NCBI RefSeq assembly: GCF_014489635.1
Contig: NZ_CP060828.1
Coordinates: 3,076,001-3,140,000 of the forward strand
Direction: 5' to 3'
DNA from: Streptomyces roseirectus
GTDB lineage: Bacteria; Actinomycetota; Actinomycetes; Streptomycetales; Streptomycetaceae
DNA: 64,000 nucleotides
Shown piece after piece: positions 6,364-23,355 of this stretch. Positions within the stretch are counted from its first letter, which is position 1. Each line of letters begins with the position of its first letter. The position numbers and the translations under genes were made by a program. Below the pieces are notes generated by a model that was not told the origin of the DNA, did no database searches, and was given only the letters and a program-made list of their open reading frames with translations.

Positions 6364-9300
6364 TCAGTCGCCCACGGTCTCTTCGATCTGTTCGAAGCCG
6401 CCCATCGCCCCGGCCCACAGCCTCACCTCGGCGATGTGACCGGGCACGTAGTGCTGCCACGTGCCGCCCGTGAACCCCTTGCCGACCGCGAAGTCGCCGG
6501 AGCCGACCTGGGCGGTGAACGCCTTGGCGTCGTCGTTCTGGACAGCGCCGAGGTAGAGGCTGATCGTGCCGTCGGAGGCGTTGTGGACGCCGGTCAGCCG
6601 GACCCTGCTGTCCAGGACGGCGCTCTCCGTCGAGTCGACCGTGGTGAACGTCTTGCCGTCCGCGCCGAGGCGGCCGAAGCGCCAGAAGCCGACGGGGACG
6701 GTCTTCTCCGCCGCCGCTTCCTCGTTCCACACGGTTTCCTTGCCGGTCAGCTCGTACCAGAAGCCCCAGGACGATCCGTCCGCGGTGCGCTGTCCGAGCA
6801 CCTGGCCCTTGTAACCGACGCCCTTCGCCAGGAGTGCGTCGCCGTCCAGCGCGACCAGGGTCGTCGCGGTGAACGAACCGGAGTCGTCGACCACCGGACC
6901 GGCCGTCGTCGCCGCCGCGTCGGTGCCGTTGAGGACGACGGACTCGCCTTCCAGCTTCGCGCCGCCGCTCAGCGTCAGCGACCTGCCGTAGCCCGACGTC
7001 GTGTCCGCGACGGTCGTGCCGCTGCCCCGCTCCGCCGACCAGTCCGCCACCAGCTCGGCCCCGTTGAAGTCCGCGCTGGTCTTCAGCAGCGCCTCGTCCG
7101 CGATCTGCTCGTCCGTCAGCGCGGACTGCCAGGTCGCGGCCTCGTCGACGGAACCGGGGAAGTAGTCGGTGTAGGTGTCACGCCACAGCGCCCGGCCGAT
7201 CTGCAGCGGCCCGCTCGCGGCCCAGGACGGTGCCACCGGATCGCTGCCCTGCAGCTTGCCGTTGACGTACAGCCTGATCTCCTTGACCGACGCGTCGTAG
7301 ACCATCGCCAGATGGGTCCACGCCCCGGCGACCGCCGGCTGCTTGGCCACCACCGTCTGCTGGCTGATGTTGCCGTTCGCGTCGTCGGTCGGCGACGTAC
7401 GGACCGTCCACGTGCCCACCGCGCTCTGGTAGGAGAGGTAGAAACCGCTGTAGTAGGCGCCTTCCTGCGCGAGCACGGTCTTGTTGCCGTCAGGCAGACC
7501 GTTCAGCCGCGCCCAGGCCGACACCGTGTACGAGGCACGCGTGTCGACGACCGGGGCACTGGTCGCCGCGTGACCCGCGGAACCGTCCAGGGCCAGGCCC
7601 TTGTCGGTCACCGGAGCCGTCAGCGCAGTACCCGATGCGTCACGCGTCAGAGTCCCGCGCCGCCCCCGGTCGTCCCGCGCCGCGCCTCCGGCGAGCGTCG
7701 CGTTCTGGGCACCGCCGTCCGCGGTGACCGCGTCGACCGCCGCCCCGCTCGCCTCGCCGAAGTTCCAGCGGCCCGTCCGCTGGTCGTCGTTGCTGACCAG
7801 GAAGTCGACCTGGTTGGTCGCGCCGATGCGCCCGCTGCCCACGTTGTCCTTGGCCCGCACCTGAAAGGTGAACGTCCCCGAACGCTTCGGCACCAGGCTC
7901 ACCTTGGCCGTCGAACCGCTCACCGCGGACCACGTGCTCGCCGTGGAGAGCTTGTACTCGTAGGAGACGACGTTCGTGTCCGCCGTGTTCGGCGCCAGCG
8001 AGAACGTCACCGCCTGGTCCGGACGGCCGGCGGCCACACAGGAGTTGGGCAGGCACTCGGAGTACGGACTGCCGATCGTGATCCGCGGGGCCTTCGGCGC
8101 CGTCGAATCGACCTTGAAGTAGCAGTACGCGGTCGTCTCGGGGCTCATCAGGTAGCTGGCGCCGTTGTTGTAGTACGACCAGCTCCAGGCGTGGTAGCGG
8201 TACAGCGTGCCGTCGGTCAGCTTCGACCACTTCAGCGCGACGGCGGCGTTGTCGGCCGCGTAGCCCGTCGAGGGGCGCAGCGAACCGTTGCCCGCCGTGG
8301 TGTCCGACCAGGTGCCGTCGGTGTTGCGGTGGTCCAGGTCGAAGTAGATCCGCAGCTGCGCGTCCTTCTCGCCGCCCGGTTTGGTCTGTGCCACGGCCCG
8401 CAGCGTCGGTTCGGGGTCGGAGACGACCGCCGGCTTCGTGATGTCCTTCTCGCACGCCGTGCCCGACCCCGTGGCCAGGCCCACGCCGGTCGGCCGGTCC
8501 GGGAGTCCCACGAAGTCGACGGCGAGCGTCGCGTCGTTCTTGAACCGCTTCCACGCCGACGGGTCCGACTCGTCGTGCGCCCGGACCTCCAGCGTCAGCC
8601 GGGAGAACTTCCCCGCCGCGAAGTCCGCGACCGTGGGCGTCAGGTTCTCCCACGACTGCTTCGGATCGTCGTTGAACTCGATCTGGGCGTTGGGAGAATC
8701 CGGATCGCACAGGGAACCGCGCCCGGCGGACACGTTCACGTCCACCATCCAGTCCCGTTCCTTGGGACGCGTCGCCCAGGTGGTGGCGGACGAGATGTTG
8801 TCGGTACGAACCAGGTCCACCACGCGCGGGGAGCACTGGAACGCCCACGGCTCGGTGATCCGGAACGTGGCGTCCAGGACCTTCTTGCCCTTCAGGCTGT
8901 CCGGCGCGAACTCGAAGTACAGCTTCTGCACATACCCCGGGCCGCAGTAGTACCCGCTCCAGGTACCGCACTTGCCGGCACCCTTGCCCTGGTTGTCGTC
9001 GCCGTTGTCCCACCCGTACGACTCGTAGCCGTCGCTGCGCAGGAGCGTGCGCTCCGACTCGCCCCAGGAGACGACCGGGTCGATGAAGACCGGGAACGAC
9101 GCTTTGTCGGTCCTGGTCAGCATGTCGCCGTCCGGGATGACCGAGAGGGAATCCTCGGTCACCTCGACGTTCATGCGGGCAACGGCATCGCCCTGGGCGG
9201 GCTCCAGACTCTTGCTGGAGAGGGCCTTGGCTGCAGGGGCGTCGAGTTCGGTGGCGTCGGCTGACGCCTCGGTCTCGGCGGCTGTCGTCCTCACCAACTG

Positions 9301-10086
9301 CGTCCGGGTCTCGGTCGTCGAGCCCGCGGAGTCCCACATGCGGGCGGGCGGCGCCTTGAACACGGTCTGGCCGTTGCCGTCCACGGCTATCAGGTTCTCG
9401 GCCGGGCCCTCGTGTACGTCCAGTCCCTCGGCCTTGAGCCCGAAGGTGAGCTTCTTCAGCTCCTCGGCCGCCGCGGCTTCGGGCGTCTTGACGACGAACA
9501 CCGGCTGGAAGCTCTCGGGGGTCGCGGTCACCTTCAGGTCGATACCCGGCAGCACCTCGGCATACAGGGCGCTGGGGCCGTCCAGCGTGGGCGTCGGAAG
9601 CGTGCCGGGCCAGCTGAGCTCCAGCGATCTGCCCTGATCCTCGATCCGGGCCAGGGGTGTCGTGTCCCCGCCCGCTGAAAGGTCGATCCGCACCGCCGCC
9701 GCTTTGGGTGACAGCGTGCCGTCCGACGCCTTCACCAACGTCGCGTCGGGTGCCTGCCAGCCGCCGCCCGGCTTGGCCACCCGGACCGGGACGATCGACT
9801 GTTCCAGCGTGAACGTGTATCCGTCCGGGTTCGCGAAGACCGTCGTCTGCTCGGTGCGTTCACCGGTGACCTCGACACGTCGGCCGGACTCCTGCGCCTT
9901 GGCCAGCGCCTCCTGCCCCTCGCTCAGCGGAGCCGGCTCGGAGTCCGTGCCGGACGCGGACGCCTGCGGCACAGGAAACGCCACGACAGTCAGGGCCATG
10001 CCAAGGACGACCGCAGCACCCGCCCCCCTTCGCCGCCCACGTCTCAGACGTCCGACCGTACCTCTGTCTCCCCACCCGAACCGCAT
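6364..10086 (-). CDS. Secreted LamG-domain protein associated with RHS toxin
   Basis: A 1240-residue exported protein. I chose the ATG at 10086 over one 48 bp upstream because GGGGGGCGGAG lies just before it and the product then opens with an Arg-rich n-region and a hydrophobic core ending near PQASASG, a good signal peptide. The first 350 residues contain a beta-rich region ending in FPVFIDP. Later parts carry Fn3-like strands and two concanavalin/LamG-type regions (about residues 820-1000 and 1040-1235). Such lectin-like proteins often sit directly upstream of RHS genes in Streptomyces and may bind glycans or help surface delivery; that role is inferred. The N-terminal third is recognisably similar to the FG-GAP protein at 45.8-48.9 kb. 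Confidence 0.88.
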   Translation of the reverse strand: MRFGWGDRGTVGRLRRGRRRGAGAAVVLGMALTVVAFPVPQASASGTDSEPAPLSEGQEALAKAQESGRRVEVTGERTEQTTVFANPDGYTFTLEQSIVPVRVAKPGGGWQAPDATLVKASDGTLSPKAAAVRIDLSAGGDTTPLARIEDQGRSLELSWPGTLPTPTLDGPSALYAEVLPGIDLKVTATPESFQPVFVVKTPEAAAAEELKKLTFGLKAEGLDVHEGPAENLIAVDGNGQTVFKAPPARMWDSAGSTTETRTQLVRTTAAETEASADATELDAPAAKALSSKSLEPAQGDAVARMNVEVTEDSLSVIPDGDMLTRTDKASFPVFIDPVVSWGESERTLLRSDGYESYGWDNGDDNQGKGAGKCGTWSGYYCGPGYVQKLYFEFAPDSLKGKKVLDATFRITEPWAFQCSPRVVDLVRTDNISSATTWATRPKERDWMVDVNVSAGRGSLCDPDSPNAQIEFNDDPKQSWENLTPTVADFAAGKFSRLTLEVRAHDESDPSAWKRFKNDATLAVDFVGLPDRPTGVGLATGSGTACEKDITKPAVVSDPEPTLRAVAQTKPGGEKDAQLRIYFDLDHRNTDGTWSDTTAGNGSLRPSTGYAADNAAVALKWSKLTDGTLYRYHAWSWSYYNNGASYLMSPETTAYCYFKVDSTAPKAPRITIGSPYSECLPNSCVAAGRPDQAVTFSLAPNTADTNVVSYEYKLSTASTWSAVSGSTAKVSLVPKRSGTFTFQVRAKDNVGSGRIGATNQVDFLVSNDDQRTGRWNFGEASGAAVDAVTADGGAQNATLAGGAARDDRGRRGTLTRDASGTALTAPVTDKGLALDGSAGHAATSAPVVDTRASYTVSAWARLNGLPDGNKTVLAQEGAYYSGFYLSYQSAVGTWTVRTSPTDDANGNISQQTVVAKQPAVAGAWTHLAMVYDASVKEIRLYVNGKLQGSDPVAPSWAASGPLQIGRALWRDTYTDYFPGSVDEAATWQSALTDEQIADEALLKTSADFNGAELVADWSAERGSGTTVADTTSGYGRSLTLSGGAKLEGESVVLNGTDAAATTAGPVVDDSGSFTATTLVALDGDALLAKGVGYKGQVLGQRTADGSSWGFWYELTGKETVWNEEAAAEKTVPVGFWRFGRLGADGKTFTTVDSTESAVLDSRVRLTGVHNASDGTISLYLGAVQNDDAKAFTAQVGSGDFAVGKGFTGGTWQHYVPGHIAEVRLWAGAMGGFEQIEETVGD

Positions 10087-11262: not shown

Positions 11263-11357
11263 GTTTCCGGGCCGCGGCGGTAGCGGAACGGGAACGGATC
11301 GGAAACGGGGGTTCTTAGGGTCGGGGGAATTGCTGGGACGGCGTGAGGGAGGGCGAC

Positions 11358-11975
11358 GTGAGCGGGATCGTGCTGATGTCGGGGAGCGTGCGGGGCGGGT
11401 CGTACAACTCGGCGGTCGTCGCGACGGTGCGGCGGATCGTGGCGGAGCGGTTCGGCGGGGTGTGGACTGAGGTCTTGGACGCCGGGGAACTGCCGTTCTA
11501 CGACGAGGACTTGGACGCCGTGGACGGGTCCGAGGCGGTCGTGCGCATGCGGGAGCGGGTGCGGGCGGCGGACGTCGTGCTGCTCAGTACGCCGTCCTAC
11601 AACGGGGCCGCTTCCGGGGTGCTCAAGAACGCCGTGGACTGGCTGTCGCGGCCGTACGGTGAGAGTGCACTCGACGACAGGATCACCGTCGTGACCAGCG
11701 CATCTCCCGGGCCCCGTGGGGCCGTTGACGCTCAGGCGGGGCTCGTGGAAGTGCTCGGGCACGCGGGGGCGCTGGTCGTCGAGCATCCGCCGGTGGCCGT
11801 CGCCCACGCGGAGGAACTGATCACCACGCAGGGGGAGTTCGAGGACCCTCGGGTGCTGGCCGAGTTGGAGAGTCTGGTGCGGGCCGCGCTGGACGCGGCC
11901 GGGTGGGGGGCGGCTGGGCAGGACGCGGCCGGGCAGGGCTCGGCAGAGCAAGGCTCGGCCTCGCTCGCCGTCTGA
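11358..11975 (+). CDS. NADPH-dependent FMN reductase family protein
   Basis: A 205-residue flavodoxin-fold protein. It has the phosphate-binding loop GSVRGGSYNSAVV near the N-terminus and the family signature PSYNGAASGVLKNAVDWLSRP near residue 85. These features define NAD(P)H:FMN reductases of the azobenzene/chromate reductase type, cytosolic enzymes that supply reduced flavin or reduce quinones. I chose the GTG at 11358 because GAGGGAGG lies just upstream; a GTG 15 bp earlier is the alternative. The C-terminus has an odd Ala/Gln/Gly-rich tail encoded by repeats. As the first gene of the plus-strand cluster it may supply a redox step, but it could equally be an unrelated neighbour. Confidence 0.85.
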   Translation: MSGIVLMSGSVRGGSYNSAVVATVRRIVAERFGGVWTEVLDAGELPFYDEDLDAVDGSEAVVRMRERVRAADVVLLSTPSYNGAASGVLKNAVDWLSRPYGESALDDRITVVTSASPGPRGAVDAQAGLVEVLGHAGALVVEHPPVAVAHAEELITTQGEFEDPRVLAELESLVRAALDAAGWGAAGQDAAGQGSAEQGSASLAV

Positions 11976-12030: not shown

Positions 12031-12202
12031 CGCCCCAGCCCCTACACCCCGTACACACCAACACCCCCACGCGCACCGAGAACACCGCCCCACCCCTCCC
12101 CCACCGGTCCACCGCCGGGCACGGACGGCCCCCCGTCGTCCGCGCCCGGCTTTGCCGTCGTTGCGGACTTCTCCCGTCCCCTTCCGGAAAGCGTTCGTCG
12201 CC

Positions 12203-13051
12203 ATGAGTGAACTGTCCCGGCAGCCCCGGATCCTGCTGGTCGGACCGTCCGTGGAGGTCGTGCGGGCGGCCGGCGCGGCGGGGTTCGGGGTGTGGTCGTT
12301 GTGGGATGCGCGCCGCTGTCCGGACGCTCGACTCGCGGTCGTGTCCGAGCGGTTACTGCTCGCGGACTTCGCGGACGAGGCGGGGCTCGCGGACGCGACC
12401 GGCGCCGCCGCGGAGGCCGGGTTGTGCGTCAACCCCCCTGGCGCGGTGCGGCTGTTGGCGGACAAGGAGGCGGTGCGGCGGGTCGGTGAGGTCAACGGGC
12501 TTGTGGCAACGGGGAGTTCGGGGGCGGTCGGCGGGGCGCGGTTCCGAGTGGACACGTTGAGCGTGCACGGCATGCACCACACCGTGGGGATCACCGTCGA
12601 GACGCCGTACGGGGTGTTGTACCCGGCGCCGGTGACCGCGGGGGTCGCGGCGGCGCTGCGGTCCGCCGTCGCCTCGCTGCTGGATCTCGCCGGGTACCAG
12701 TACGGGCCGGCGTGCACGTCCGTCGTGCTGACGGCGCGCGGGCCGGTGACGACGGGGTGCCGGACCGTCGTCGCGGAGGAGCCGGTGGCGGGGCTGGTGC
12801 GGGTGGCGGCGGGGCGGGACGTGGTGGGGGACGCGTTCGGGGCGCTGGCCGGGCGGGACGTGGTGCCGGTGCGGGCGCGGGGGTTCGCGGTGGCGATCGC
12901 GGTCGGGGGGCTACTCGGGGAGCGGGTGCGGGAGTTGCCGTACGTGCGGGAGGTCGTGGGCGGATACGCCGTGGTGGGTGCGGAGTCGGTGGATCTGGTG
13001 GTCGAACTCGCGGGGTTTATCAGGGAGTTGGCGGGCAGCGGCGTGTGCTGA
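12203..13051 (+). CDS. Shortened ATP-grasp-like protein
   Basis: A 282-residue protein. Residues 1-90 look like the pre-ATP-grasp domain, with ILLVG and NPPGAVRLLADKEAVRR, the helix that precedes the nucleotide site in carbamoyl-phosphate-synthase-like ligases. The text then jumps to FRVDTLSVHG and ITVET, which in full-length relatives (about 400 residues) follow the ATP-binding subdomain. The lysine-bearing strand and glycine-rich loop are therefore absent. The usual Mg-binding Glu/Asn motif near the end is replaced by VTTGCRTV. Catalysis is doubtful; it may be a binding or scaffold protein. Codon 12353-12355 is TTA, rare in Streptomyces and read by the bldA tRNA, so expression may be development-dependent. 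The ATG at 12203 has only a weak GGAAAG site. The peptide genes begin 120 bp downstream. Confidence 0.7.
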   Translation: MSELSRQPRILLVGPSVEVVRAAGAAGFGVWSLWDARRCPDARLAVVSERLLLADFADEAGLADATGAAAEAGLCVNPPGAVRLLADKEAVRRVGEVNGLVATGSSGAVGGARFRVDTLSVHGMHHTVGITVETPYGVLYPAPVTAGVAAALRSAVASLLDLAGYQYGPACTSVVLTARGPVTTGCRTVVAEEPVAGLVRVAAGRDVVGDAFGALAGRDVVPVRARGFAVAIAVGGLLGERVRELPYVREVVGGYAVVGAESVDLVVELAGFIRELAGSGVC

Positions 13052-13171: not shown

Positions 13172-13225
13172 ATGATCCGCAAGCCCGTTCGTCGGGGCGT
13201 CAGCGCCCGGAAGTCCGCGTTCTGA
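13172..13225 (+). CDS. Mini-peptide 1 of three (17 aa)
   Basis: Encodes MIRKPVRRGVSARKSAF. GGGAGGAGG stands seven bases before the ATG, an excellent ribosome site. The sequence is strongly basic (six Arg/Lys) and has no signal peptide. Two near-copies follow within 200 bp, each with its own GGAGG, so translation is very likely. It could be the precursor of a modified peptide, a carrier peptide on which a small molecule is built, or a regulatory peptide. The conserved part is residues 1-14 and the tail is variable, which in a precursor would mean leader then core. Function unknown. Confidence 0.75.
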   Translation: MIRKPVRRGVSARKSAF

Positions 13226-13268
13226 GGAACGTCCTCCGTTTCTTCGAGGCAGGGAAGGAGGAACAGCC

Positions 13269-13325
13269 ATGATCCGCAAGCCGGTTCGCCGTGGTGTGAG
13301 CGCCCGTAAGGCCGTGTCCGCCTGA
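13269..13325 (+). CDS. Mini-peptide 2 of three (18 aa)
   Basis: Encodes MIRKPVRRGVSARKAVSA. It is preceded by AAGGAGGAACAGCC and the ATG, the strongest ribosome site of the three. The first 14 residues are identical to peptide 1, but several codons differ at the third position (CCG for CCC, CGT for CGG, GTG for GTC). The protein is therefore conserved more than the DNA, evidence of selection on the peptide itself. The tail changes from SAF to AVSA. Confidence 0.77.
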   Translation: MIRKPVRRGVSARKAVSA

Positions 13326-13371
13326 GGTCGCACTCCCCCGTCCCTACGAGCTGCGTGAAGGAGGTACTGCC

Positions 13372-13428
13372 ATGATCCGCAAGCCGGTTCGCCGGGGCGT
13401 CAGCTCCCGCAAGGCCGTCGCCGCCTAA
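13372..13428 (+). CDS. Mini-peptide 3 of three (18 aa)
   Basis: Encodes MIRKPVRRGVSSRKAVAA. AAGGAGGTACTGCC precedes the ATG. It differs from the others at residue 12 (Ser for Ala) and in the tail. The 46-bp spacer before it is unrelated to the spacer before peptide 2 except around the ribosome site, so each copy appears to be maintained as a separate small gene. The next feature downstream is a hairpin and then the first propeller gene. Confidence 0.75.
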   Translation: MIRKPVRRGVSSRKAVAA

Positions 13429-13446
13429 GGCGAGGCCCCTTCCGCG

Positions 13447-13480
13447 TGGCGGGCACGGCGCCTTGGCGCGGTGCCCGCCA
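13447..13480 (+). terminator. Hairpin between peptide genes and propeller gene (attenuator candidate)
   Basis: TGGCGGGCACGGCGCC at 13447-13462 pairs with GGCGCGGTGCCCGCCA at 13465-13480 with one mismatch and a two-base centre (about four unpaired in practice). No T-run follows, which is common for GC-rich terminators. Its place, 18 bp after the last peptide stop and 62 bp before the next start, suggests partial termination so that peptides are made in excess over the enzymes. Confidence 0.5.
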
Positions 13481-13542
13481 CCGCTGTTCCGGGCCCCCCG
13501 GCCTCCTCCCGTACTGCCGAACACCCTTTGAAGGAGCCTGAG

Positions 13543-15432
13543 ATGGAGTTGACCGACCGCGTCGTACGGATCGTGCACGTGCCGGGAGCCGGACTGCTGG
13601 CGGCCGATGTGACGGGCCGTCTCCACCTGTTGGACGACGATCTGCGCATCCTGCGCTCCTCCCCCGCGCCGACGGGCAGCGTCGCCGCCGGGCACGCGCC
13701 CGTGTACACGGTGACCGCGTCCGGCGACTGGGTGGTGGGCCGCGACAAGCGGGGCACGCTGCTGCGGTGGCGACTTGACACGCTGGAGCTCGTCGACGTG
13801 CTCGACGCCGACCGGACCGCCAATCGTGGGGAGTTGCTGGACGGCGAGGAGCCGTCGCCGGTGATGAGCCGGGGCATCACGGTGCACAAGGGCAAGGTCT
13901 ACATGAACAACGGGTACCGCCAGATGGCCGTGCTCGACCTGGAGACGTTCGCGGTCGACCGGATCGAGCCGAACTTCGCCGGGCATGTGCCGCTGGAGTG
14001 GTTCTGCCAGGACCACCCGAGCATCGACGCCGCCTCGGACAAGGCCGGCCGGGTCTTCCTCGGCGACCTGGAGACCCTGGACTTCCCGACGGTCGTGCAG
14101 GCGGACGGCGGCAACATCCACCGCATCCTGTACGACCCGCTGCACGACCGGTTCTGGGCGACGCAGGACGACGGCGTCGACGAGAACAACAACATCGCCA
14201 ACGGCGTCCTCACCCTGGACGCGCGGGGCAACGTCACCGGTCAACTCCTGCTGGCCCGCGACGACGTGGAGTTCCTGGCGTTCTCGCCGGACCACCGGAC
14301 GGTGTACGTCGGCGGCTTCGACGGCGTCCTGCACCTGCTGGACAACAGCACGCCGGAGCTGAAGGTCGGCTCGACGGTCACCGGGTTCGCGCACCAGCTC
14401 ACGGACTTCGCGGTGCACGACGACGGTTCGATCTACACGCTGACCCAGGACGGCGACCTGCGCCGGCTCACCGCCGACGGCACGACGACGCTGGCCCGCG
14501 CCCCGTTCCGCCGCCAGTGCGTGTGGGACATCCAACCGGCCCTGGAGTCCGAGGAGTTGTACGTCGCGACGGACGACGGTGTCGCCGTCATGGCCGTCCT
14601 CGCCGACAACCTGGGCGAGCCCTACCTCGTGACCCGCGACCACCACGTCCACGGCATGGGCTTCACCCGGCGGGTCGTGCCGCTGCCGGGCGGGTACGCC
14701 GGCGTCACCCGTGACCAGTGGGTGCTGCGGACAGACCGCGACGGCACGCAGGTGTGGCGTCACCAGGTGCCCGCGCTCGCGCACACCGTGTCGGGCTCGC
14801 CGGATCACGCGCGGCTGCTGGCCTGCCACAACGACGGTGTCGACGAACTCGACGCGGCGACCGGCGAGTTGATCGCCCGGATCGACATCGGCCGGGCCTC
14901 CGCGTGGGCGGGCTGCTATCTGCCCGGCGGTGAGCGGGTGATCGCCTCCAGCACCGGCCTCGTCACCGTGTACGCGGCCGAAGGCGACGCCGTGCTGCGG
15001 GAGTTCGACACCGAGGAGTACCCGAAGCGGATGTGGGCCGAGGACGCCGACCACCTGATCATCACCGGCGAGAACGGCGTGAAGCGCCTGTCGCTGCTGA
15101 CGGGTGAAGTGACGCACCGCTGGACGGAGTTGCTGGACAACACCGTCGAGAACGGGGCGTTCCTCGGCGACACGGTGTACGCGGTGTCCTACGGTGCCCA
15201 ACTCTCCGCGTACGAGCGGGAGTCGACGGAGATCACGGCGCTGGTGGAGGATCTGCCGGACTTCGCGAAGGCGCTCGCGGCGGTGCCGTTCGGCGAGCAG
15301 GGGCGGCATGTCCTGCTGGCCGGGGGGCGCGGTGGCTGGATCCGGATCTTCCTGACGGCCGCCGAGGACCGCAAGGCTCCTCTGACGCGCGTACGCGATC
15401 TGATCGTGCCCCGGCAGAAGACGATGCCGTGA
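13543..15432 (+). CDS. Beta-propeller (PQQ/WD40-like) protein, ToxC-like
   Basis: A 629-residue cytosolic protein made almost entirely of four-stranded blade repeats (for example GRLHLLDDD, DGVLHLLDN, GDLRRLTADG, GLVTVYAAEG), with no signal peptide or membrane segment. The ATG at 13543 has AAGGAG six bases upstream; the frame extends further up but without a better start. Large WD-repeat proteins of this length are encoded next to GTP cyclohydrolase II and an FGE-like gene in toxoflavin clusters (toxC), where they are needed for the product but have no assigned chemistry. A second propeller gene lies at 17433. Catalytic residues cannot be named from sequence. Confidence 0.8.
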   Translation: MELTDRVVRIVHVPGAGLLAADVTGRLHLLDDDLRILRSSPAPTGSVAAGHAPVYTVTASGDWVVGRDKRGTLLRWRLDTLELVDVLDADRTANRGELLDGEEPSPVMSRGITVHKGKVYMNNGYRQMAVLDLETFAVDRIEPNFAGHVPLEWFCQDHPSIDAASDKAGRVFLGDLETLDFPTVVQADGGNIHRILYDPLHDRFWATQDDGVDENNNIANGVLTLDARGNVTGQLLLARDDVEFLAFSPDHRTVYVGGFDGVLHLLDNSTPELKVGSTVTGFAHQLTDFAVHDDGSIYTLTQDGDLRRLTADGTTTLARAPFRRQCVWDIQPALESEELYVATDDGVAVMAVLADNLGEPYLVTRDHHVHGMGFTRRVVPLPGGYAGVTRDQWVLRTDRDGTQVWRHQVPALAHTVSGSPDHARLLACHNDGVDELDAATGELIARIDIGRASAWAGCYLPGGERVIASSTGLVTVYAAEGDAVLREFDTEEYPKRMWAEDADHLIITGENGVKRLSLLTGEVTHRWTELLDNTVENGAFLGDTVYAVSYGAQLSAYERESTEITALVEDLPDFAKALAAVPFGEQGRHVLLAGGRGGWIRIFLTAAEDRKAPLTRVRDLIVPRQKTMP

Positions 15433-15460: not shown

Positions 15461-16774
15461 GTGAGCAAGACCGATGCGGGTGGGGGCGAGGGCGTGGACA
15501 CGCCGCAGGACGGGCCCGCGCCCTTGAGCGACCCGGACGAGGCCAAGCCGTCGCCCTGGCTGGACCGGCGGTTCCAGATCTTCGCCACCGGGAACGTCGT
15601 CAACAACATCGGTGAGGCCGTCTACACCGTCGCCCTCCCGCTGTTCGTGTACGAGCGCACCGGCTCGCTCGCGATCATGTCGCTGCTCGCGGTGCTGACG
15701 CCGGCGACGCTGCTGCTGGCGCCGGTGCTCGGCGCGGTCGTGGACCGGTACGGGGCACGGGTGTTGGTGGTGCCGGGGCTGCTGGTGCAGGCCGCGGCGG
15801 CGATCGCGCTGAACCTGACGGGGCTCGCCGACGACGCGCCGGTGTGGCCGCTGTTCGTGTTCGGCGCGCTGGTGCAGATCGGCGGGGCCGGGTACCGGAT
15901 GGGGTGGATGACCGGGGTCGCGCACATGTTCCCGGACAACCCGGTGCGTTCGCGGGCGAGCCTCGGGAGCCTCTACACGGTGACCAACGTGGTGGGGCCG
16001 CTGCTGGTCAGCGCCGCGCTGCTGTGGGTCGGGTACACGGGGCTCCTCTGGTTCAACGTGCTGACGTTCTTCGCGCCGATCGTGGTGTGGCTGGTCGGCG
16101 TCCACCCGCCGCGGGTGGAGCCCGGCGGGAAGGGTCAAGTCGGGCTGGTCAAGGGGCTGTTGGACGGGGTGCGGGTGATGCGGCGGGCGCCGGTGCTGCT
16201 GCACGCCATCCTCGTCTTCGTCCCGATGCTGGTCGTCGGCACGACCGGCACGATGACGCTGTCGCTGTTCCGGCTCCAGCACGACTGGGATCTGTCGCCG
16301 CGCGCGGTGGGTCTGGTGCTGGTGGCCGTCCGGATCGCCGGGGTGCTCGGGACGATCGTCGTCTCGGAGCGCAAGACGTTCCCGTTCCGCGCGATCACGC
16401 TGGTCGGGACGGTCGGCATGGGCGCGGCGCTGCTGCTGATGGCGTCCGGGTCGGTGCACGTGTTCGTGGCCGCGATGGTCGTGATGTTCGGTTTCCAGGC
16501 GGCGCTCAGCGTGGCGAGCGACCTGATGGTGTTCAAGTTCGTCCCGGCGGACGCGCTGGGCCGGGTCGGCGGGATCGTCGACCTGGTGCTGGGGCTGCCG
16601 ATCCTGGCCGGGCCGCTGGTCGTGCCCGCGCTCGCCGATCTGCTCGGCTCGTCCGCCGTCTTCCTCGCCTTCGGCGCCGTACAGCTCGCCGGCCTGCTGT
16701 GGCTGTGGCGGACCTGGCGGCAGTGGGCGCCTTCCCCGCACACCTCGTCCCGAGAGGAGGCCGTCCCGGCATGA
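15461..16774 (+). CDS. MFS transporter
   Basis: A 437-residue membrane protein with about twelve hydrophobic segments starting near residue 35, and a typical loop between segments 2 and 3 (GAVVDRYGARVLV). It fits the drug-exporter branch of the major facilitator superfamily. The GTG start follows AGGAGGCCAGGCC. It begins 28 bp after the propeller gene and its stop overlaps the next start (ATGA), so it is part of the operon. The likely role is export of the cluster product and self-protection, inferred from context. Confidence 0.85.
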   Translation: MSKTDAGGGEGVDTPQDGPAPLSDPDEAKPSPWLDRRFQIFATGNVVNNIGEAVYTVALPLFVYERTGSLAIMSLLAVLTPATLLLAPVLGAVVDRYGARVLVVPGLLVQAAAAIALNLTGLADDAPVWPLFVFGALVQIGGAGYRMGWMTGVAHMFPDNPVRSRASLGSLYTVTNVVGPLLVSAALLWVGYTGLLWFNVLTFFAPIVVWLVGVHPPRVEPGGKGQVGLVKGLLDGVRVMRRAPVLLHAILVFVPMLVVGTTGTMTLSLFRLQHDWDLSPRAVGLVLVAVRIAGVLGTIVVSERKTFPFRAITLVGTVGMGAALLLMASGSVHVFVAAMVVMFGFQAALSVASDLMVFKFVPADALGRVGGIVDLVLGLPILAGPLVVPALADLLGSSAVFLAFGAVQLAGLLWLWRTWRQWAPSPHTSSREEAVPA

Positions 16775-17436
16775 GCGACGGCAATGGCGTGAGCGACGGC
16801 ACGAGTTCCGGTCCTGGCACAGGTGTTCGCGCCCGGGTGCCCGTCACCCTCAACAGGGCGGGCGCGGCGGCCGAGTTGGTCACCTTCCACGGCCTGACGG
16901 ACCGTCAGGAGCATGTGGCCGTGGTGGTGGCGGCCGAGCAGCAGGCCGTCCCGCTGGTGCGGCTGCACAGCGAGTGCCTGACCGGTGACGTGTTCGGCTC
17001 TGAACGCTGCGACTGCGGACCGCAGTTGGAGGAGTCGCTGCGGCTCGTCGCGCGCGACGGCGGGGCCGTGCTGTACCTGCGCCAGGAGGGGCGCGGGATC
17101 GGGCTCTACAACAAGCTCGACGCGTACGTCCTCCAGGACGGCGGCAGCGACACCTTCGAGGCGAACCGGCTGCTGGGCCGGGGCGAGGACGAGCGCGACT
17201 ACACGTCGGCGGCCGAGATGCTGCGCGCGCTGGGCCTGACCCGGATCCGGCTTCTGTCCAACAACCCTGACAAAGCTGAGCAGTTGACGGAGCTGGGCAT
17301 CGAGGTCGTGGAGCGGGTGCCGACCGGGGTCTTCCTGACCGGGGAGAACGGCCGCTACCTCGACGCGAAGGCGCGGCACGCCGGCCACACCCTGCCCGTA
17401 CCGAACCCCGACTCCCTGGAGGTGTCTGTCCTGTGA
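16771..17436 (+). CDS. ribA: GTP cyclohydrolase II
   Basis: A 221-residue enzyme of usual GCH II length. It shows the zinc-binding segment SECLTGDVFGSERCDCGPQL with all three cysteines, the catalytic RQEGRGIGL loop and LLSNNPDK near the end. GCH II opens the imidazole ring of GTP, releasing formate and pyrophosphate, to give 2,5-diamino-6-ribosylamino-4-pyrimidinone 5'-phosphate. That compound is the entry point of riboflavin and of toxoflavin-type 7-azapteridines (ToxB). No other rib gene is nearby, and it is translationally coupled on both sides (ATGA upstream, GTGA downstream), so a pathway-specific copy is likely rather than the housekeeping one. Confidence 0.92.
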   Translation: MSDGNGVSDGTSSGPGTGVRARVPVTLNRAGAAAELVTFHGLTDRQEHVAVVVAAEQQAVPLVRLHSECLTGDVFGSERCDCGPQLEESLRLVARDGGAVLYLRQEGRGIGLYNKLDAYVLQDGGSDTFEANRLLGRGEDERDYTSAAEMLRALGLTRIRLLSNNPDKAEQLTELGIEVVERVPTGVFLTGENGRYLDAKARHAGHTLPVPNPDSLEVSVL

Positions 17437-19121
17437 TCCGCCACCACGGTCCGATCAGCGGAATCGCGGCCCACGACGGGAGGTTCGTGGCGACCGCCGG
17501 CTACGACAACCAGCTCGTGCTGTGGGACGTCTCGACGCGCCGGGCGCTGGCCCGCGCCTTCCACGACCACCTCGCCAACCAGGTCGCGTTCAGCCCCGAC
17601 GGCCGGCACCTGGTGTCGTCGTCGAGCGACTACACGGCCCGCCTGTGGTCGGTTCCCGACCTGAAGCTCCTCGCGGTCCTCTCCGACCAGGAGGACGACG
17701 TCGAGATGTCGGCGTTCCACCCGGTCAAGCCGCTCATCGCGACGGCGTCGCGCGATCACCGGGTGCGCGTGTACGACTTCTCGGGCGCCCTGCTGCACAC
17801 CTTCACCGGGCACACCGCCGACGTCATCTCGGTCGAATGGGTCGCCGGGAGCGACGAGTTGGTGTCCTCCAGCGACGACGGGACGATCAAGCGCTGGTCG
17901 GCGGAGACCGGCGCGCTGGTGTCCGACACGGACCTCGGGGAGGTCGAGACGGACACGCTCGCGGTCACGCCCGGCGGCACGGTCTTCGCGGGCAACGACG
18001 AGGGCGAGATCGTCGTCCTCGGCGCGGACGGCACGGCCACGCACCACGCGCACGAGGCCGGTATCAAGCGGCTCGTCCTGGACGCCGCGCACGGCCGTAT
18101 GGTGAGCCTGAGTTACGACCGCACGATGCGCGTGTGGGACGTCACCGACGGGCTGCGGCCGGTCGCCGCCTCGACGTTCCCGGCGGACGTGTGGCCGCGA
18201 TCGTGCGCGTTCCTCGACGAAGACACCCTGGTCTTCGCGACGTTCGGGTCCTCGTACGCCATCCACCGCATCGGCAGCGGGAGTTGGGACCTCGACCACG
18301 TCGAGCCGACGCACGGCGTGAACGCGGTCGCCGTCCACGAGGGTCACCAACTGACCATAGGTGACGCGGGAATTCTGCGGACGGACGGGGTGGTGACGGC
18401 CGAGACCGGCAGCCTCTGCAACTTCCTCACGCCGGCCGGCGGGCGGGTGTTCAGCGGCGGCCAGATGGGGACCGTCTTCGACGCGCTGACCGGCGAGGTG
18501 CTGCACCAGCACCGCTCGCCGCTCAACTGCGGCGCGGCGTTCGAGCGGGACGGTGTGCCGCACGTCGTCCTCGGCGCCTACACCGGCGAGGGCCTGGTCT
18601 TCTCGGTGGCGGCCGACGGGGCCGTCAAGCACGAGGCGACGCTGCCGCTGCACACGGGCGCGGTGAAGGGGGTCGCGGTCTCCGGCGGGCGGATCTTCTC
18701 GGTGTGCGCCGACGCCGCCGCGTCCTGGTTCTCCGTCGACGACTTCACCGAGACCGGGCGAGCCGACGCGGCGCACGACCGGATCGCCAACGGGTGCGCG
18801 GGGTTGCCGGGCGGGCGGTTCGCGAGTGTCAGCCGGGATCTGAAACTCCGGCTGTGGGACGGGAGTTCGGCGGTCGCGCACGACACTCCGCACGATCACT
18901 CCATCAAGTGCGTGACGGCTTCGGAGGACGGGCGGTATGTCGCAACCGGGTCGTACAACGGGGTGGTCGCGGTGTTCGACGTGGTGGGCGGGGTGTGGTC
19001 GGCGGTCCGGCGGCCCACCACCTCGGGGATCTCGTCGCTGACGTTCGACGCCGGGCGGGATGTGTTCCTGGCGGGGGCGTACGACGGACGGGTGTACGAG
19101 GTGCCGGGGGCGGAGGCGTGA
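17433..19121 (+). CDS. WD40-repeat protein, ToxC-like
   Basis: A 562-residue propeller with clear WD blades: LVLWDV, ARLWSV, VRVYDF, IKRWSA, MRVWDV, LRLWDG, each preceded by His- or Asp-containing turns such as TGHTADVISVEW. No signal or membrane segment. The GTG at 17433 overlaps the cyclohydrolase stop (GTGA) and has CTGGAGG upstream, so the two are translationally coupled. Two different propeller proteins in one operon is unusual; known toxoflavin clusters as I remember them have one. It may act as a scaffold or supply an unrecognised active site. Confidence 0.85.
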   Translation: MIRHHGPISGIAAHDGRFVATAGYDNQLVLWDVSTRRALARAFHDHLANQVAFSPDGRHLVSSSSDYTARLWSVPDLKLLAVLSDQEDDVEMSAFHPVKPLIATASRDHRVRVYDFSGALLHTFTGHTADVISVEWVAGSDELVSSSDDGTIKRWSAETGALVSDTDLGEVETDTLAVTPGGTVFAGNDEGEIVVLGADGTATHHAHEAGIKRLVLDAAHGRMVSLSYDRTMRVWDVTDGLRPVAASTFPADVWPRSCAFLDEDTLVFATFGSSYAIHRIGSGSWDLDHVEPTHGVNAVAVHEGHQLTIGDAGILRTDGVVTAETGSLCNFLTPAGGRVFSGGQMGTVFDALTGEVLHQHRSPLNCGAAFERDGVPHVVLGAYTGEGLVFSVAADGAVKHEATLPLHTGAVKGVAVSGGRIFSVCADAAASWFSVDDFTETGRADAAHDRIANGCAGLPGGRFASVSRDLKLRLWDGSSAVAHDTPHDHSIKCVTASEDGRYVATGSYNGVVAVFDVVGGVWSAVRRPTTSGISSLTFDAGRDVFLAGAYDGRVYEVPGAEA

Positions 19122-19149
19122 ACTCCCTTTGTGGAGCGGGGAGTTCGCC

Positions 19150-20121
19150 GTGAGCGCGGTCGTGGTGAATCCGAACGAGGTCGGGGACCGGGCGGCGATG
19201 GGGCTTCCGGAGTCCTTCGTGCGGCGCGGTCCCGAGCCGGAGTTCGACGCGGAGTTGCTGGGGGCGTCGCCGCAGGTGCTGGCCTCGGTGGCGTCGTCCG
19301 CGCACGAGCCGTTCGGGCGCAGGCTCGCCGCCGGGACCCTGCTCGCGCTCCTCGGTGACCCCCGGATCCGGGTGTTCGAACCGGAGTTGGTGGCGGTGCC
19401 GGCGGCGAAGGTGACCATCGGGATCCCGTCGGAGCGGGTCGCCGAGGTGGCCCGGCGGTGGTCGCACGTCGGCGTGCTGGAGGAGTGGATCGCGAAGGAG
19501 GCTCCCCAACACGACGTCGACATCGCGGAGTTCAGGATCGGCCGGTACCCGGTGACCAACGCCGAGTACCGGGTGTTCCTGGAGGAGACGCGGGCGACCT
19601 GGCTGCCCACCTCGTGGCGATTCGGCGTGTTTCCACGGGAGTTGGCCAACCATCCCGTGTGGGGTGTGCCGGCCGAGGCCGGGGACGCGTACGCCGCCTG
19701 GCTGGCGCGGCGCACCGGGCGGCTGTTCCGGCTGCCGACGGAGGCCGAGTGGGAGTACGCGGCGTCCGGCGGGGACGGGCGGGAGTATCCGTGGGGCGAG
19801 GGGTTCCGGGCGGAGTGCGCCAACACCGTCGAGGCGGGGCCGCTGACGACCACGCCGGTCGGGATCCACCCGGCGGGGCGCAGTCCGTTCGGGCTGGACG
19901 ATGTCGCCGGGAACGTCGAGGAGTTCGTCGCGGACGACTACCGGGCGTATCCGGGGGGTGCTCCGGAGCCGGACGACCTGCTGCTGACGCGGGGGTCGTA
20001 CCGGGTCGCGCGGGGCGGGAGCTTCACGCGGTACGGGGATCTCACGCGGTGTGCGCGGCGGCACGGGTGGTACGACAAGGCCATCTACGCGATCGGGTTC
20101 CGGCTGGCGGAGACGCCGTGA
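19150..20121 (+). CDS. Formylglycine-generating-enzyme-like (SUMF1/FGE) protein, ToxD-like
   Basis: A 323-residue protein whose second half carries the FGE-sulfatase signature: GRYPVTNAEYRVFLE, LPTEAEWEYAASGG, EYPWGEGF, GLDDVAGNVEEFVADDY, ARGGSF and a final GFRLAE. True formylglycine-generating oxidases need two cysteines shortly after GGSW/GGSF; here the text is GGSFTRYGDLTRCARR, so the first cysteine is missing and the pair is not conserved. It is therefore probably not an aerobic sulfatase activator. The first 130 residues are a separate helical region. ToxD of toxoflavin clusters belongs to this family. The GTG at 19150 has GGGGAG upstream. It lies 28 bp after the WD40 gene. Confidence 0.85.
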   Translation: MSAVVVNPNEVGDRAAMGLPESFVRRGPEPEFDAELLGASPQVLASVASSAHEPFGRRLAAGTLLALLGDPRIRVFEPELVAVPAAKVTIGIPSERVAEVARRWSHVGVLEEWIAKEAPQHDVDIAEFRIGRYPVTNAEYRVFLEETRATWLPTSWRFGVFPRELANHPVWGVPAEAGDAYAAWLARRTGRLFRLPTEAEWEYAASGGDGREYPWGEGFRAECANTVEAGPLTTTPVGIHPAGRSPFGLDDVAGNVEEFVADDYRAYPGGAPEPDDLLLTRGSYRVARGGSFTRYGDLTRCARRHGWYDKAIYAIGFRLAETP

Positions 20122-20328: not shown

Positions 20329-23300
20329 GTGGCGTATGGGAAACCAGCAGACGTCCGCTTCAACATCCTTGGTTCGCTCGAAGGCTGGCACGGTGACCGG
20401 CGGCTGAAACTCGGCAGTCCCACCCAGGAGCGGGTGCTCGTCACCCTGCTCCTGGAACCCGGCCGGATGATCCCGGTCTCCCGGCTGGTGGCCGCCGCCT
20501 GGGACGACGAGCCACCGCAGACGGCGGCTCACCAGGTCCGCAAGGCGGTCGCGGCCCTGCGCACCCGGATCCCGGGCGGCGCGGGCCTGATCGCCACCGA
20601 CGGCACCGGCTACCGTGCCGTCCTCGCCGACGACCAGCTCGACCTGCACGAGTTCAACCGGCACACCCGGCTGGCCCGCGAGGCGTCGGCGGCCGGGCAA
20701 CTCCAGGTGGCCGTCGAGGAGTTGCGGGCTGCCGTCGGACTGTGGCGGGGCCCGGTCCTCGCGGGCGCGGGCGGGCCGGTGCTCGCCGCCGCGTCCGCCG
20801 CCCTGGAGGAGCGGCACATGGCCGCCGCCGAGCAGTACCACGGGCTGCGCCTCGAACTCGGCGAGGCCGCCGAACTCGTCGGCCCGCTCCGCGAGTTGAT
20901 CGCCTCGCATCCGCTACGGGAGGCGCTGCGCGGCCAGTTGATGCTGGCCCTGTACCGGTCGGGGCGCCAGGCCGAGGCGTTGGAGGAGTTCACCCGGGTC
21001 CGTGAACTGCTCGTCGAGGAGCTGGGGATCGACCCGGGCACCGAACTGACCCGCCTGTACGAGGCGATCCTGCGCGACGGCCCCGAGGTCGCCCCGCGTC
21101 CGGCGGCCGTCCACCCGGCGCCGGAGCCCAAACCGGCCGAGCCGCCCCGGACGTTGCCCTATGACCTGCCCGACTTCACCGGCAGGCAGGGCGAGTTGGC
21201 GCGGATCGTCGCCGCCGGACGGACGCCGGGCCGGGGAGCGGCGCGGATCGTCGGGGTGGACGGCATGGGCGGCAGCGGCAAGACCGCGCTCGCCGTGCAC
21301 ACCGCGCACCGGCTCGCCGAGGAGTATCCGGACGGCCAACTCTTCGTGGACCTTCGGGGGTTCAGCCCCGGCGAGAAGCCGCAGGAGGCGGGCCCTGTCG
21401 TCGACTCGCTGCTGCGCAGCCTGGGTGTGACGGACGACCGGATGCCCGAGGGGCCGGAGCGCAGGCTCGCCCTCTGGCAGCGGCTGTGCGCCGGGCGGCG
21501 GCTGCTGCTGGTCCTGGACAACGCCGTGGACGCCGCGCAGATACGGCCGTTGCTGCCGGCGGCGGACTCGTCGGGCGGCTGCCTGGTGCTGCTCACGAGC
21601 CGGATCCGGATGCTCGACCTCGACGGCGCGGAGTGGCTGTCCCTCGAACTCCTCTCCCCCGCCGACAGTTTCGCCCTCCTGGAACGCACGCTGGGCGCCG
21701 AGCGGGTGGCCGCCGAGCCTCAAGCGGCCCAGCGGCTCGTCCAGTTGTGCGGGGGGCTCCCGCTGGCACTGCGGATCACCGCCGCGCGGCTGCGCAACCG
21801 GCCCCGCTGGACCCTCCAGTACCTCGTCGACCGGCTCGCGGACGAGACGCGCCGGCTGTCCGAACTCAGCGCCGGGCAGCGGAGTGTGGAGGCGACGCTG
21901 CGGCTGTCGTACCAGGCGATGGAGGAGCCCCGGCGGGCCGCGTTCCGGCTGCTCGCCGAGCATCCCGGGTCCACGCTCGACGTGTACTCCGTCGCCGCGC
22001 TGCTCGGCGGCGACGTCCGCACGGCCGAGGACACGCTGGAACACCTCCTCGACAGCCACCTCCTGGACCAGCCGGAGATGGGGCTCTACAGCTTCCACGA
22101 CCTCGTGCGCACCTACGCGTTGGGGCTGCGCGGCGCCGAGGACGATCCGCTCGGCGCGATGCGCCGGCTCGTGTCGTACTACGTGCGCGCGACGGAGGCG
22201 GCCTGCGACGCGCTGTTCCCCGGGCGGACGCGGTATGCGGCCGACTCGGGTCAACAGGCTTGGCCGGTACCGGAGTTCGCGTGTGGGGAGCGGGCGTTGG
22301 AGTGGCTGCGGCGGGAGCACGACGCGTTGCGGGCGGTCACCGAGCGGGCGGCCGCGGCGGGGTTGCACCGTGACACCGTCGTCCTCGCCCGGAATCTCAT
22401 GTTCTACCTCAACCTCCTTGGCCGGCATGAGGAGTTCGGGGCGGGGGCGCGGCTCGCGGTGGCGTCGGCGCGGGCGCTCGGGGATCCGCTGCTGCTGCGG
22501 GTCAGCCTCGGGAACCTGGGGATCGCGCACTGGTGGCTCGGGGCGTTCCAGGAGGGGATCGACGCCGCCGAGGAAGCGCTCGCGGTGGACGCCGGGGACC
22601 CGTCGACCGAGGCGTTCTGTCTCGACGTCCTCGGGCTGCTGCACGGCGCGTTCGGGAACTTCGAGCGGGCGCGGGCCCATCTGGAGCAGGGGATCGCGCT
22701 GCACCGCTCGCTCGGGGCGGCGCGGATGGAGGCGGAGGCGCTGGCCAACCTCAGCTCCGTGCTGACCTGGAGCGGGCGGCACGCGCAGGCCGCCGGGCAC
22801 GCCGCGCGGGCCGTCGAACTGAACCGGCGGCTCGGGGAGCGGGGCAACGAGATCACCTCGCTGACCTGGCTGGCACTCGCCCATCTCGGGCTCGGTGAGG
22901 ACGAGCGGGCGCGGGTGTGTCTCGCGCAGGCGCTCGAACTGTGCGACGAGGGGCTGCGGCCGGGGAACGTGGCGCTGGTGCACGCGTACTGGGCGTTGCT
23001 GTGCCAGCGGCGGGGACGGGAGCGGGAGGCCGCCGAATTCGCCGAGCAGGCGCTGGAGTTGGTGTCATCGCGGGGAACGTCCGTGCGGCAGGCCGCCGTT
23101 GGGAACGTGGTGGGGGTGGTGCGGCGGCTCCAGGGTGATGCTTCGGGGGCGTTGGAGCTGCATCGGCGGGCGCATCAGCTGGCCTCGACGGTGGGGTATC
23201 AGATCGAGGCGGCGCGGGCGTTGTGGGGGATGGGGGAGGCGGTGGGGGTGTTGGGGGACGCGGAGGCTGCCGCGGGGTATCGGGGGGCGGCTGAGGTGTT

Positions 23301-23355
23301 GTTCGAGGGGATGGGGGTGGGGAGTTCGGGGCGGGGGCGTTTGGGGGTGTGGTGA
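20329..23355 (+). CDS. SARP-family regulator with NB-ARC and TPR domains (AfsR-like)
   Basis: A 1008-residue regulator. Residues 10-95 form an OmpR-type winged helix (LGSLEGWHGDRRLKLGSPTQ). Residues 100-245 are the bacterial transcriptional activation domain, with the typical LGIDPGTELTRLYEAIL end. From about 285 an NB-ARC ATPase follows, with Walker A GMGGSGKTAL and Walker B LLLVLDN. The last 350 residues are tetratricopeptide repeats rich in paired Ala/Leu helices. AfsR-type proteins bind direct repeats and recruit RNA polymerase to antibiotic genes; nucleotide and TPR parts modulate this. The GTG start has GGGAGAGGG upstream. Its position at the end of the operon marks it as the likely pathway-specific activator. 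Confidence 0.92.
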   Translation: MAYGKPADVRFNILGSLEGWHGDRRLKLGSPTQERVLVTLLLEPGRMIPVSRLVAAAWDDEPPQTAAHQVRKAVAALRTRIPGGAGLIATDGTGYRAVLADDQLDLHEFNRHTRLAREASAAGQLQVAVEELRAAVGLWRGPVLAGAGGPVLAAASAALEERHMAAAEQYHGLRLELGEAAELVGPLRELIASHPLREALRGQLMLALYRSGRQAEALEEFTRVRELLVEELGIDPGTELTRLYEAILRDGPEVAPRPAAVHPAPEPKPAEPPRTLPYDLPDFTGRQGELARIVAAGRTPGRGAARIVGVDGMGGSGKTALAVHTAHRLAEEYPDGQLFVDLRGFSPGEKPQEAGPVVDSLLRSLGVTDDRMPEGPERRLALWQRLCAGRRLLLVLDNAVDAAQIRPLLPAADSSGGCLVLLTSRIRMLDLDGAEWLSLELLSPADSFALLERTLGAERVAAEPQAAQRLVQLCGGLPLALRITAARLRNRPRWTLQYLVDRLADETRRLSELSAGQRSVEATLRLSYQAMEEPRRAAFRLLAEHPGSTLDVYSVAALLGGDVRTAEDTLEHLLDSHLLDQPEMGLYSFHDLVRTYALGLRGAEDDPLGAMRRLVSYYVRATEAACDALFPGRTRYAADSGQQAWPVPEFACGERALEWLRREHDALRAVTERAAAAGLHRDTVVLARNLMFYLNLLGRHEEFGAGARLAVASARALGDPLLLRVSLGNLGIAHWWLGAFQEGIDAAEEALAVDAGDPSTEAFCLDVLGLLHGAFGNFERARAHLEQGIALHRSLGAARMEAEALANLSSVLTWSGRHAQAAGHAARAVELNRRLGERGNEITSLTWLALAHLGLGEDERARVCLAQALELCDEGLRPGNVALVHAYWALLCQRRGREREAAEFAEQALELVSSRGTSVRQAAVGNVVGVVRRLQGDASGALELHRRAHQLASTVGYQIEAARALWGMGEAVGVLGDAEAAAGYRGAAEVLFEGMGVGSSGRGRLGVW

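Follow-up and report, generated by a model that had tools for sequence, protein, structure and literature searches.

Inside a biosynthetic operon in the 64-kb stretch of Streptomyces roseirectus DNA analysed here (hereafter the window), three very short open reading frames follow one another on the + strand. Are they genes, and if so, what would such small peptides contribute to the pathway in which they are embedded?

Three micropeptide genes and their neighbours

The three frames, micropeptide genes 1 (13172..13225, 17 codons, MIRKPVRRGVSARKSAF), 2 (13269..13325, 18 codons, MIRKPVRRGVSARKAVSA) and 3 (13372..13428, 18 codons, MIRKPVRRGVSSRKAVAA), occur at the positions and with the lengths given in the original prediction, and the ATG of all three copies is preceded, as it had also noted, by GGAGG at the same distance of 7 nt. 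The third-position variation on which it had built was found in six of the seven variable columns of codons 1–14, but the companion statement that residues 1–14 are kept is not exact, residue 12 being Ala, Ala and Ser in the three copies. Selection on the peptide, which had been deduced from this pattern, is supported by the low number of amino acid changes compared with random placement and by the conservation of the family in related clusters. In codons 1–14, the ratio of synonymous to nonsynonymous changes is 6/0 between copies 1 and 2 (P = 0.0001), 4/1 between copies 2 and 3 (P = 0.017) and 3/1 between copies 1 and 3 (P = 0.065), where P is the simulated probability of obtaining as few amino acid changes when an equal number of changes is placed at random.

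A DNA pattern covering the first nine residues has three perfect matches in the genome of origin (9.95 Mb, one contig), which are these three genes, and the sole further place among the matches listed at up to two mismatches deviates from the pattern at two positions. Across 392 Streptomyces genomes, the same pattern was found in three, namely the window's own and two others. Within the window, the three ORFs are the only matches on either strand to a tight peptide pattern combined with a ribosome-binding site.

The surrounding genes, all on the + strand, are arranged in the order FMN reductase-like, ATP-grasp-like, the three peptides, a β-propeller protein (PROP1), MFS transporter, GTP cyclohydrolase II, WD40 protein, FGE-like protein and regulator. 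The conserved cluster opens with the NADPH-dependent FMN reductase-like gene (11343..11975; Pfam FMN_red, E 7e-31), relatives of which lie 5′ of the peptides in eight more Streptomyces loci (L028–L033, L036 and L038). PROP1 (13543..15432; Pfam PQQ_2, 29.6 bits, with WD40 below the cut-off), the constant partner of the peptides, is followed by the MFS transporter (15461..16774; Pfam MFS_1, E 2e-27), GTP cyclohydrolase II (16771..17436; Pfam E 5e-56, NCBIfam RibA 260 bits), the WD40 protein (17433..19121; Pfam WD40), which accompanies GTP cyclohydrolase II in other loci, and the FGE-like protein (19126..20121; Pfam FGE-sulfatase, E 1.5e-42). A BTAD/NB-ARC/TPR regulator recognized by Pfam (20329..23355) closes the cluster.

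The original prediction had placed the peptides between an ATP-grasp-like gene and a propeller gene. The propeller is indeed their constant partner, but the ATP-grasp-like gene (12197..13051) lies outside the conserved set, and its assignment comes from a weak match to NCBIfam PRK02186 (20 bits, where the cut-off is 625), with no Pfam match. Among the loci searched, a 60% relative occurs in the S. griseoruber locus only (represented by L001 and L024, which are the same contig), with an FMN reductase relative close by and no match to the peptide in stretch L001. Because the S. griseoruber gene lies about 7 kb from PROP1, the ATP-grasp-like protein cannot be regarded as a constant partner; it is possibly a peptide ligase restricted to this sub-branch.

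A peptide family that accompanies PROP1

When the 900 nt 5′ of PROP1 were searched for short ORFs preceded by a ribosome-binding site, with no motif imposed, at 15 PROP1 places outside the window and in one further contig, the family already emerged, beside some other short frames. In total, the family comprises 31 genes in 15 loci, with one to five copies per locus, encoding 24 distinct peptides of 12–18 residues, and its ORFs are preceded by good ribosome-binding sites. L029 carries five near-identical copies (MKKIVRRVV[RK]N[DN]I), L033 three copies of MTKVVRRITRNEI, L025 the two peptides MIRKPVRRGVSSRKSVIN and MVRKPVRRGVSSRKAAF, and L032 two identical copies of MRKIVRRCPWPWIS (at 9090-9131 and 9295-9336), a peptide whose C-terminal part, alone among the 24 distinct sequences, contains Cys and Trp. 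Other members are MTIVRRVTRAAI in L035, MTKPVRRNVRMVR in L037 (added by the motif scan), MKKPIRRNVRNNK in a plasmid record of Streptomyces sp. NBC_00316, MKKATKKPVRRVVNVEQ in a plasmid record of Halobacillus litoralis (Bacillota) and MFVKPVRRNVKAGIVTPV in L047, a Streptomyces locus from the class sample in which the peptide gene is flanked by GTP cyclohydrolase II and WD40 and does not precede PROP1. In neither of the two plasmid records do the peptides appear among the genes listed. The tripeptide [VI]RR is present in 31 of 31 genes, a figure that is by selection, because these loci served to shape the tight pattern. The residues that follow it are kept inside sub-groups (NEI, NDI, NNI); no side chain is constant beyond VRR, and hence no modification site is pointed to.

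The co-occurrence with PROP1 is close. Of 19 PROP1 loci, 16 are assessable; L024 was excluded for unread bases (L001 is the same contig) and L026 because its contig starts 140 nt before PROP1, while another contig of the same genome begins inside a peptide gene, and L039 was counted separately. Searching small frames near propeller homologues, as had been suggested, yielded family peptides in 15 of the 16, the Bacillota plasmid included, so that the conservation expected of genuine genes extends across related clusters. They stand directly before PROP1 in 14 loci and before WD40 in L047. The single miss is L034, in which PROP1, GTP cyclohydrolase II and FGE are present; there, another ORF (at about 100-590) replaces the peptide, with a start that by eye resembles a signal peptide and an acidic C-terminal part. 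L039, which encodes a 36% PROP1 relative, has neither a peptide nor any other cluster gene in the stretch, and its genome, G069, is the sole one of eight searched in which no FGE relative was found at E 1e-40. The three loci obtained after a loose pattern had been fixed (L040, L041 and L047) all contain a family peptide, and one Streptomyces genome (G297) has three PROP1 loci (L035, L036 and L038) with three different peptides. G297 also carries two tox-like cores (L060 and L061) that are PROP1-free in the stretch examined.

Homologues of PROP1 at E 1e-40 were detected in 13 of 392 genomes of the genus; 2 of 394 of the class, 1 of 396 of the phylum and 7 of 395 relatives of G297 also had homologues (the own genome counted in each case), the last seven all belonging to the genus set already. 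PROP1 homologues are also recorded for Paenibacillus, Bacillus and Pectobacterium, whereas the viral contigs contained no relative. One gene common to L030, L031 and L038 is another MFS transporter.

In the 16 loci, all 36 matches to the tight pattern (nested starts counted) are family peptides, with none elsewhere in 572 kb of strand sequence. The loose pattern also matches by chance: it has 35 matches in the 11.2 kb made up of the 700 nt 5′ of PROP1 versus 12 in the 635 kb outside (nested starts counted); matches unlike the family occur once each in L041, L042, L043 and L044, twice in L047 and not at all in L057-L061. Copy 2 of L025 and the copies of L033 were flagged as lying in a called gene, which we put down to the caller extending the PROP1 ORF upstream. 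As a comparison, we inspected eight cores of GTP cyclohydrolase II, a WD40-type protein and FGE that are PROP1-free in their stretch (L042 from Azospirillum, L043 from Streptomyces BHT-5-2, L044 from Rhizobium and L057-L061 from Streptomyces genomes that carry PROP1 elsewhere). No free match to the tight pattern was found in any of them, one match in L043 having a GTG start and lying within a called gene; L061 and the L035 copy of PROP1 are separated by about 17 kb, so that L061 is not a fully separate control. Fisher's test on an earlier count (15 of 16 versus 0 of 4) gave P 0.001, which is a guide only, since related loci are not independent. The possibility that the peptides are part of the tox core itself was accordingly rejected: they travel with PROP1 rather than with the azapteridine core.

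The azapteridine-like core and a plasmid-borne relative in Halobacillus

The joint presence of GTP cyclohydrolase II, WD40 and FGE-like proteins likens the window to the tox and psd clusters. The FGE-like protein matches ToxD (PDB 7spq, E 4e-130, over residues 13-330 of 331), the cyclohydrolase would have a ToxB/PsdD-like role, and the WD40 protein, likened to ToxC by family and gene neighbourhood alone, a ToxC/PsdE-like one. According to the portion of PMC9911603 available, psdC, psdD and psdE of the seven-gene pseudoiodinine operon encode a sulfatase-modifying-factor protein, a GTP cyclohydrolase II and a WD40 protein, respectively, and PsdE and/or PsdC are suggested there to create, with glycine, the N-N bond of 1,6-didesmethyltoxoflavin; the same portion of the paper does not mention a peptide. 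Relative to tox and psd, the window adds the peptides, PROP1, the FMN reductase and the MFS transporter. Neither a RibD-like deaminase (ToxE/PsdG) nor a SAM methyltransferase (ToxA/PsdA) is among the eight window genes scanned with Pfam, and for this reason we apply the term toxoflavin-like to the core alone and do not classify the whole cluster as a toxoflavin pathway.

The core is not uniformly linked to the peptides. FGE relatives were not found in stretches L028, L029, L030, L031, L035 and L038, and GTP cyclohydrolase II was not found in L025, which ends at a contig border, and L038. The notion that FGE always belongs to the peptide locus was thus abandoned, although the genomes concerned have the gene elsewhere: G289, G321, G071, G134 and G297 each encode at least one FGE relative, which in G321, G071 and G134 stands beside another GTP cyclohydrolase II.

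On plasmid pLDW-31 of Halobacillus litoralis (L041:2585-13654), one set of genes encodes the peptide and PROP1 together with an MNIO, a small partner protein and an MFS pump; divergent from this set are AKR, FMN reductase, PLP enzyme, GTP cyclohydrolase II, WD40 and FGE genes. In all five PROP1-less cores L057-L061, FGE adjoins a gene related to the Halobacillus PLP-dependent enzyme. The Halobacillus peptide lies directly 5′ of PROP1, the next gene after PROP1 encodes the MNIO (PF05114, E 9e-27), and after it comes a protein of 257 residues that weakly matches a winged helix. MNIOs are described as a family of RiPP-modifying enzymes, and the position of this one after PROP1 supports a substrate role for the peptide in that cluster. 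The arrangement resembles that of MNIO (DUF692) RiPPs, in that an MNIO follows PROP1 with the peptide just upstream; it differs in that the precursor is only 12–18 residues long and that tblastn with the Halobacillus MNIO found no relative in the window or in the other loci tested. Consequently, in the Streptomyces loci any chemistry would fall to PROP1, FGE, WD40, FMN reductase or something unlinked. In the MNIO landscape paper (PMC12452194), none of the words propeller, WD40, cyclohydrolase and SUMF1 occurs.

Precursor or carrier versus regulator

We consider it probable, with considerable room for doubt, that the three ORFs are genuine genes of a new 'KxVRR' family, and that their products are RiPP-type precursors or ribosomal carriers which are paired with PROP1 and join an azapteridine-like product. 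Several features are RiPP-like, namely a gene-encoded precursor conserved with the pathway, a conserved N-terminus and a variable C-terminus. The conserved N-terminal part, M..K.VRR, would serve for recognition, probably by PROP1, leaving the variable C-terminal residues to be modified or released, a division that leads us to read the peptide as a precursor or carrier. Its co-occurrence with the peptides makes PROP1 the likely receptor, and our guess from the same co-occurrence is that it may bind them. GTP cyclohydrolase II, WD40 and FGE-like proteins would build the core from GTP, the peptide would join the product of that core, and the MFS pump would export the outcome, whereas in Halobacillus the MNIO and its small partner might add a further modification. 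Since no RiPP maturase, protease or ligase was recognized among the window cluster genes with Pfam and NCBIfam, RiPP membership is not established.

Peptide output may also be favoured at the RNA level. A GC-rich hairpin (13446..13481, + strand, identified as an inverted repeat and by folding) occupies the gap between the last peptide gene and PROP1, and a hairpin at the corresponding position is predicted for each of the 14 loci that were folded (L047 not among them). A perfect stem of at least 10 bp is present in 12 of the 14, a length that no more than 1.7% of random stretches from the same locus attain; the stems of the window and L025 contain a mismatch and are not scored as unusual by the perfect-stem measure, the single mismatch being why the window stem does not stand out in the control. 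The hairpin could act as a partial terminator or stabilizer favouring peptide output, and together with the several gene copies it would yield more peptide than enzyme, as the need for a stoichiometric substrate would demand.

The same hairpin invites a different interpretation, in which the ORFs encode leader peptides for translational or transcriptional attenuation and ribosomes stalling or pausing on the Arg-Arg codons control the propeller gene by way of the hairpin. Short cationic ORFs directly 5′ of PROP1 in 14 loci, each folded locus with an intervening hairpin, would be expected of such a device, and the ribosome-binding site of PROP1 is predicted to be mostly paired (mean unpaired probability below 0.45) in 11 of 13 loci, L036 being left out because no such site was found there. 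This pairing, however, does not exceed that obtained when the upstream sequence is shuffled (mean unpaired 0.33 observed versus 0.35 over the 13 loci; the lowest fractions of shuffles were 0.08 for L029 and 0.13 for the window), so that conserved hiding of the site was rejected. Attenuation also fits poorly with the five near-identical copies in L029 and the three in L033, with the L047 peptide preceding WD40 instead of PROP1, with the conservation of C-terminal residues after VRR within sub-groups, and with the lack of a fixed codon signal, [VI]RR being written by 15 different codon triplets in the 31 genes; we regard it as unlikely. Regulation could alternatively proceed through the peptides themselves, for example, as signalling ligands of the TPR regulator at the cluster end, given that short-peptide ligands are known for TPR regulators of other families. 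ORF clustering recovers this regulator from just 6 of 16 loci (some being truncated at a contig end), whereas the peptides track PROP1; no TPR regulator is among the annotated genes listed for the Halobacillus stretch, and the peptides have no secretion signal by eye, all of which makes such a function improbable.

The close pairing with PROP1 and the mean net charge of +4.35 (K, R, D and E counted) would equally suit non-enzymatic helpers, that is, cationic chaperones or stabilizing subunits of PROP1 that are never modified. C-terminal parts as different as CPWPWIS and RNEI, as well as the MNIO of the Halobacillus cluster, fit a substrate better, and we give this explanation little chance. 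Finally, the frames might be non-coding direct repeats that resemble ORFs by chance, inasmuch as the repeat unit includes the ribosome-binding site and some arrays, such as the identical copies of L032, are recent duplications. The same peptide core written in different codons in Actinomycetota and Bacillota, along with the synonymous bias in codons 1–14, speaks against chance ORFs, which we rejected as scarcely credible. Overall, we favour a role as substrate or carrier over one as regulator.

Two known strategies offer parallels for this precursor or carrier role. Microcin C-type peptide-nucleotide antibiotics come from operons that, like the cluster in the window, pair a very small precursor gene with a purine-derived partner; the window differs in that none of the eight genes scanned with Pfam encodes an MccB/ThiF-type adenylating enzyme, and the microcin C peptide is not known to be related in sequence to the window peptides. 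PEARL scaffold peptides and the ATP-grasp ligation of pheganomycin employ a ribosomal peptide as scaffold or ligation partner, and an ATP-grasp-like gene adjoins the peptides in the window; here the differences are that no LanB-like PEARL ligase is among the eight genes scanned with Pfam and that, among the loci searched, the ATP-grasp-like protein has a relative in just one other locus, that of S. griseoruber. The original prediction that no described peptide has this sequence agrees with our survey of the open literature (subscription papers being outside its scope), in which none was recognized. The peptide family appears to be previously unnoticed, and its closest kind are ribosomal precursor or carrier peptides.

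More speculatively, a micropeptide of 12–18 residues, held via VRR by a dedicated β-propeller, might be the scaffold or conjugation partner for a GTP-derived azapteridine, giving a peptide-azapteridine class with a new kind of maturation, a proposal against which we would still lean. If such conjugation is true, it would constitute a new class. Within the loci examined, the peptide partner is confined to the PROP1-bearing branch. The 'KxVRR' peptides would add a precursor family that is likely to have been missed by ORF callers with a length cut-off.
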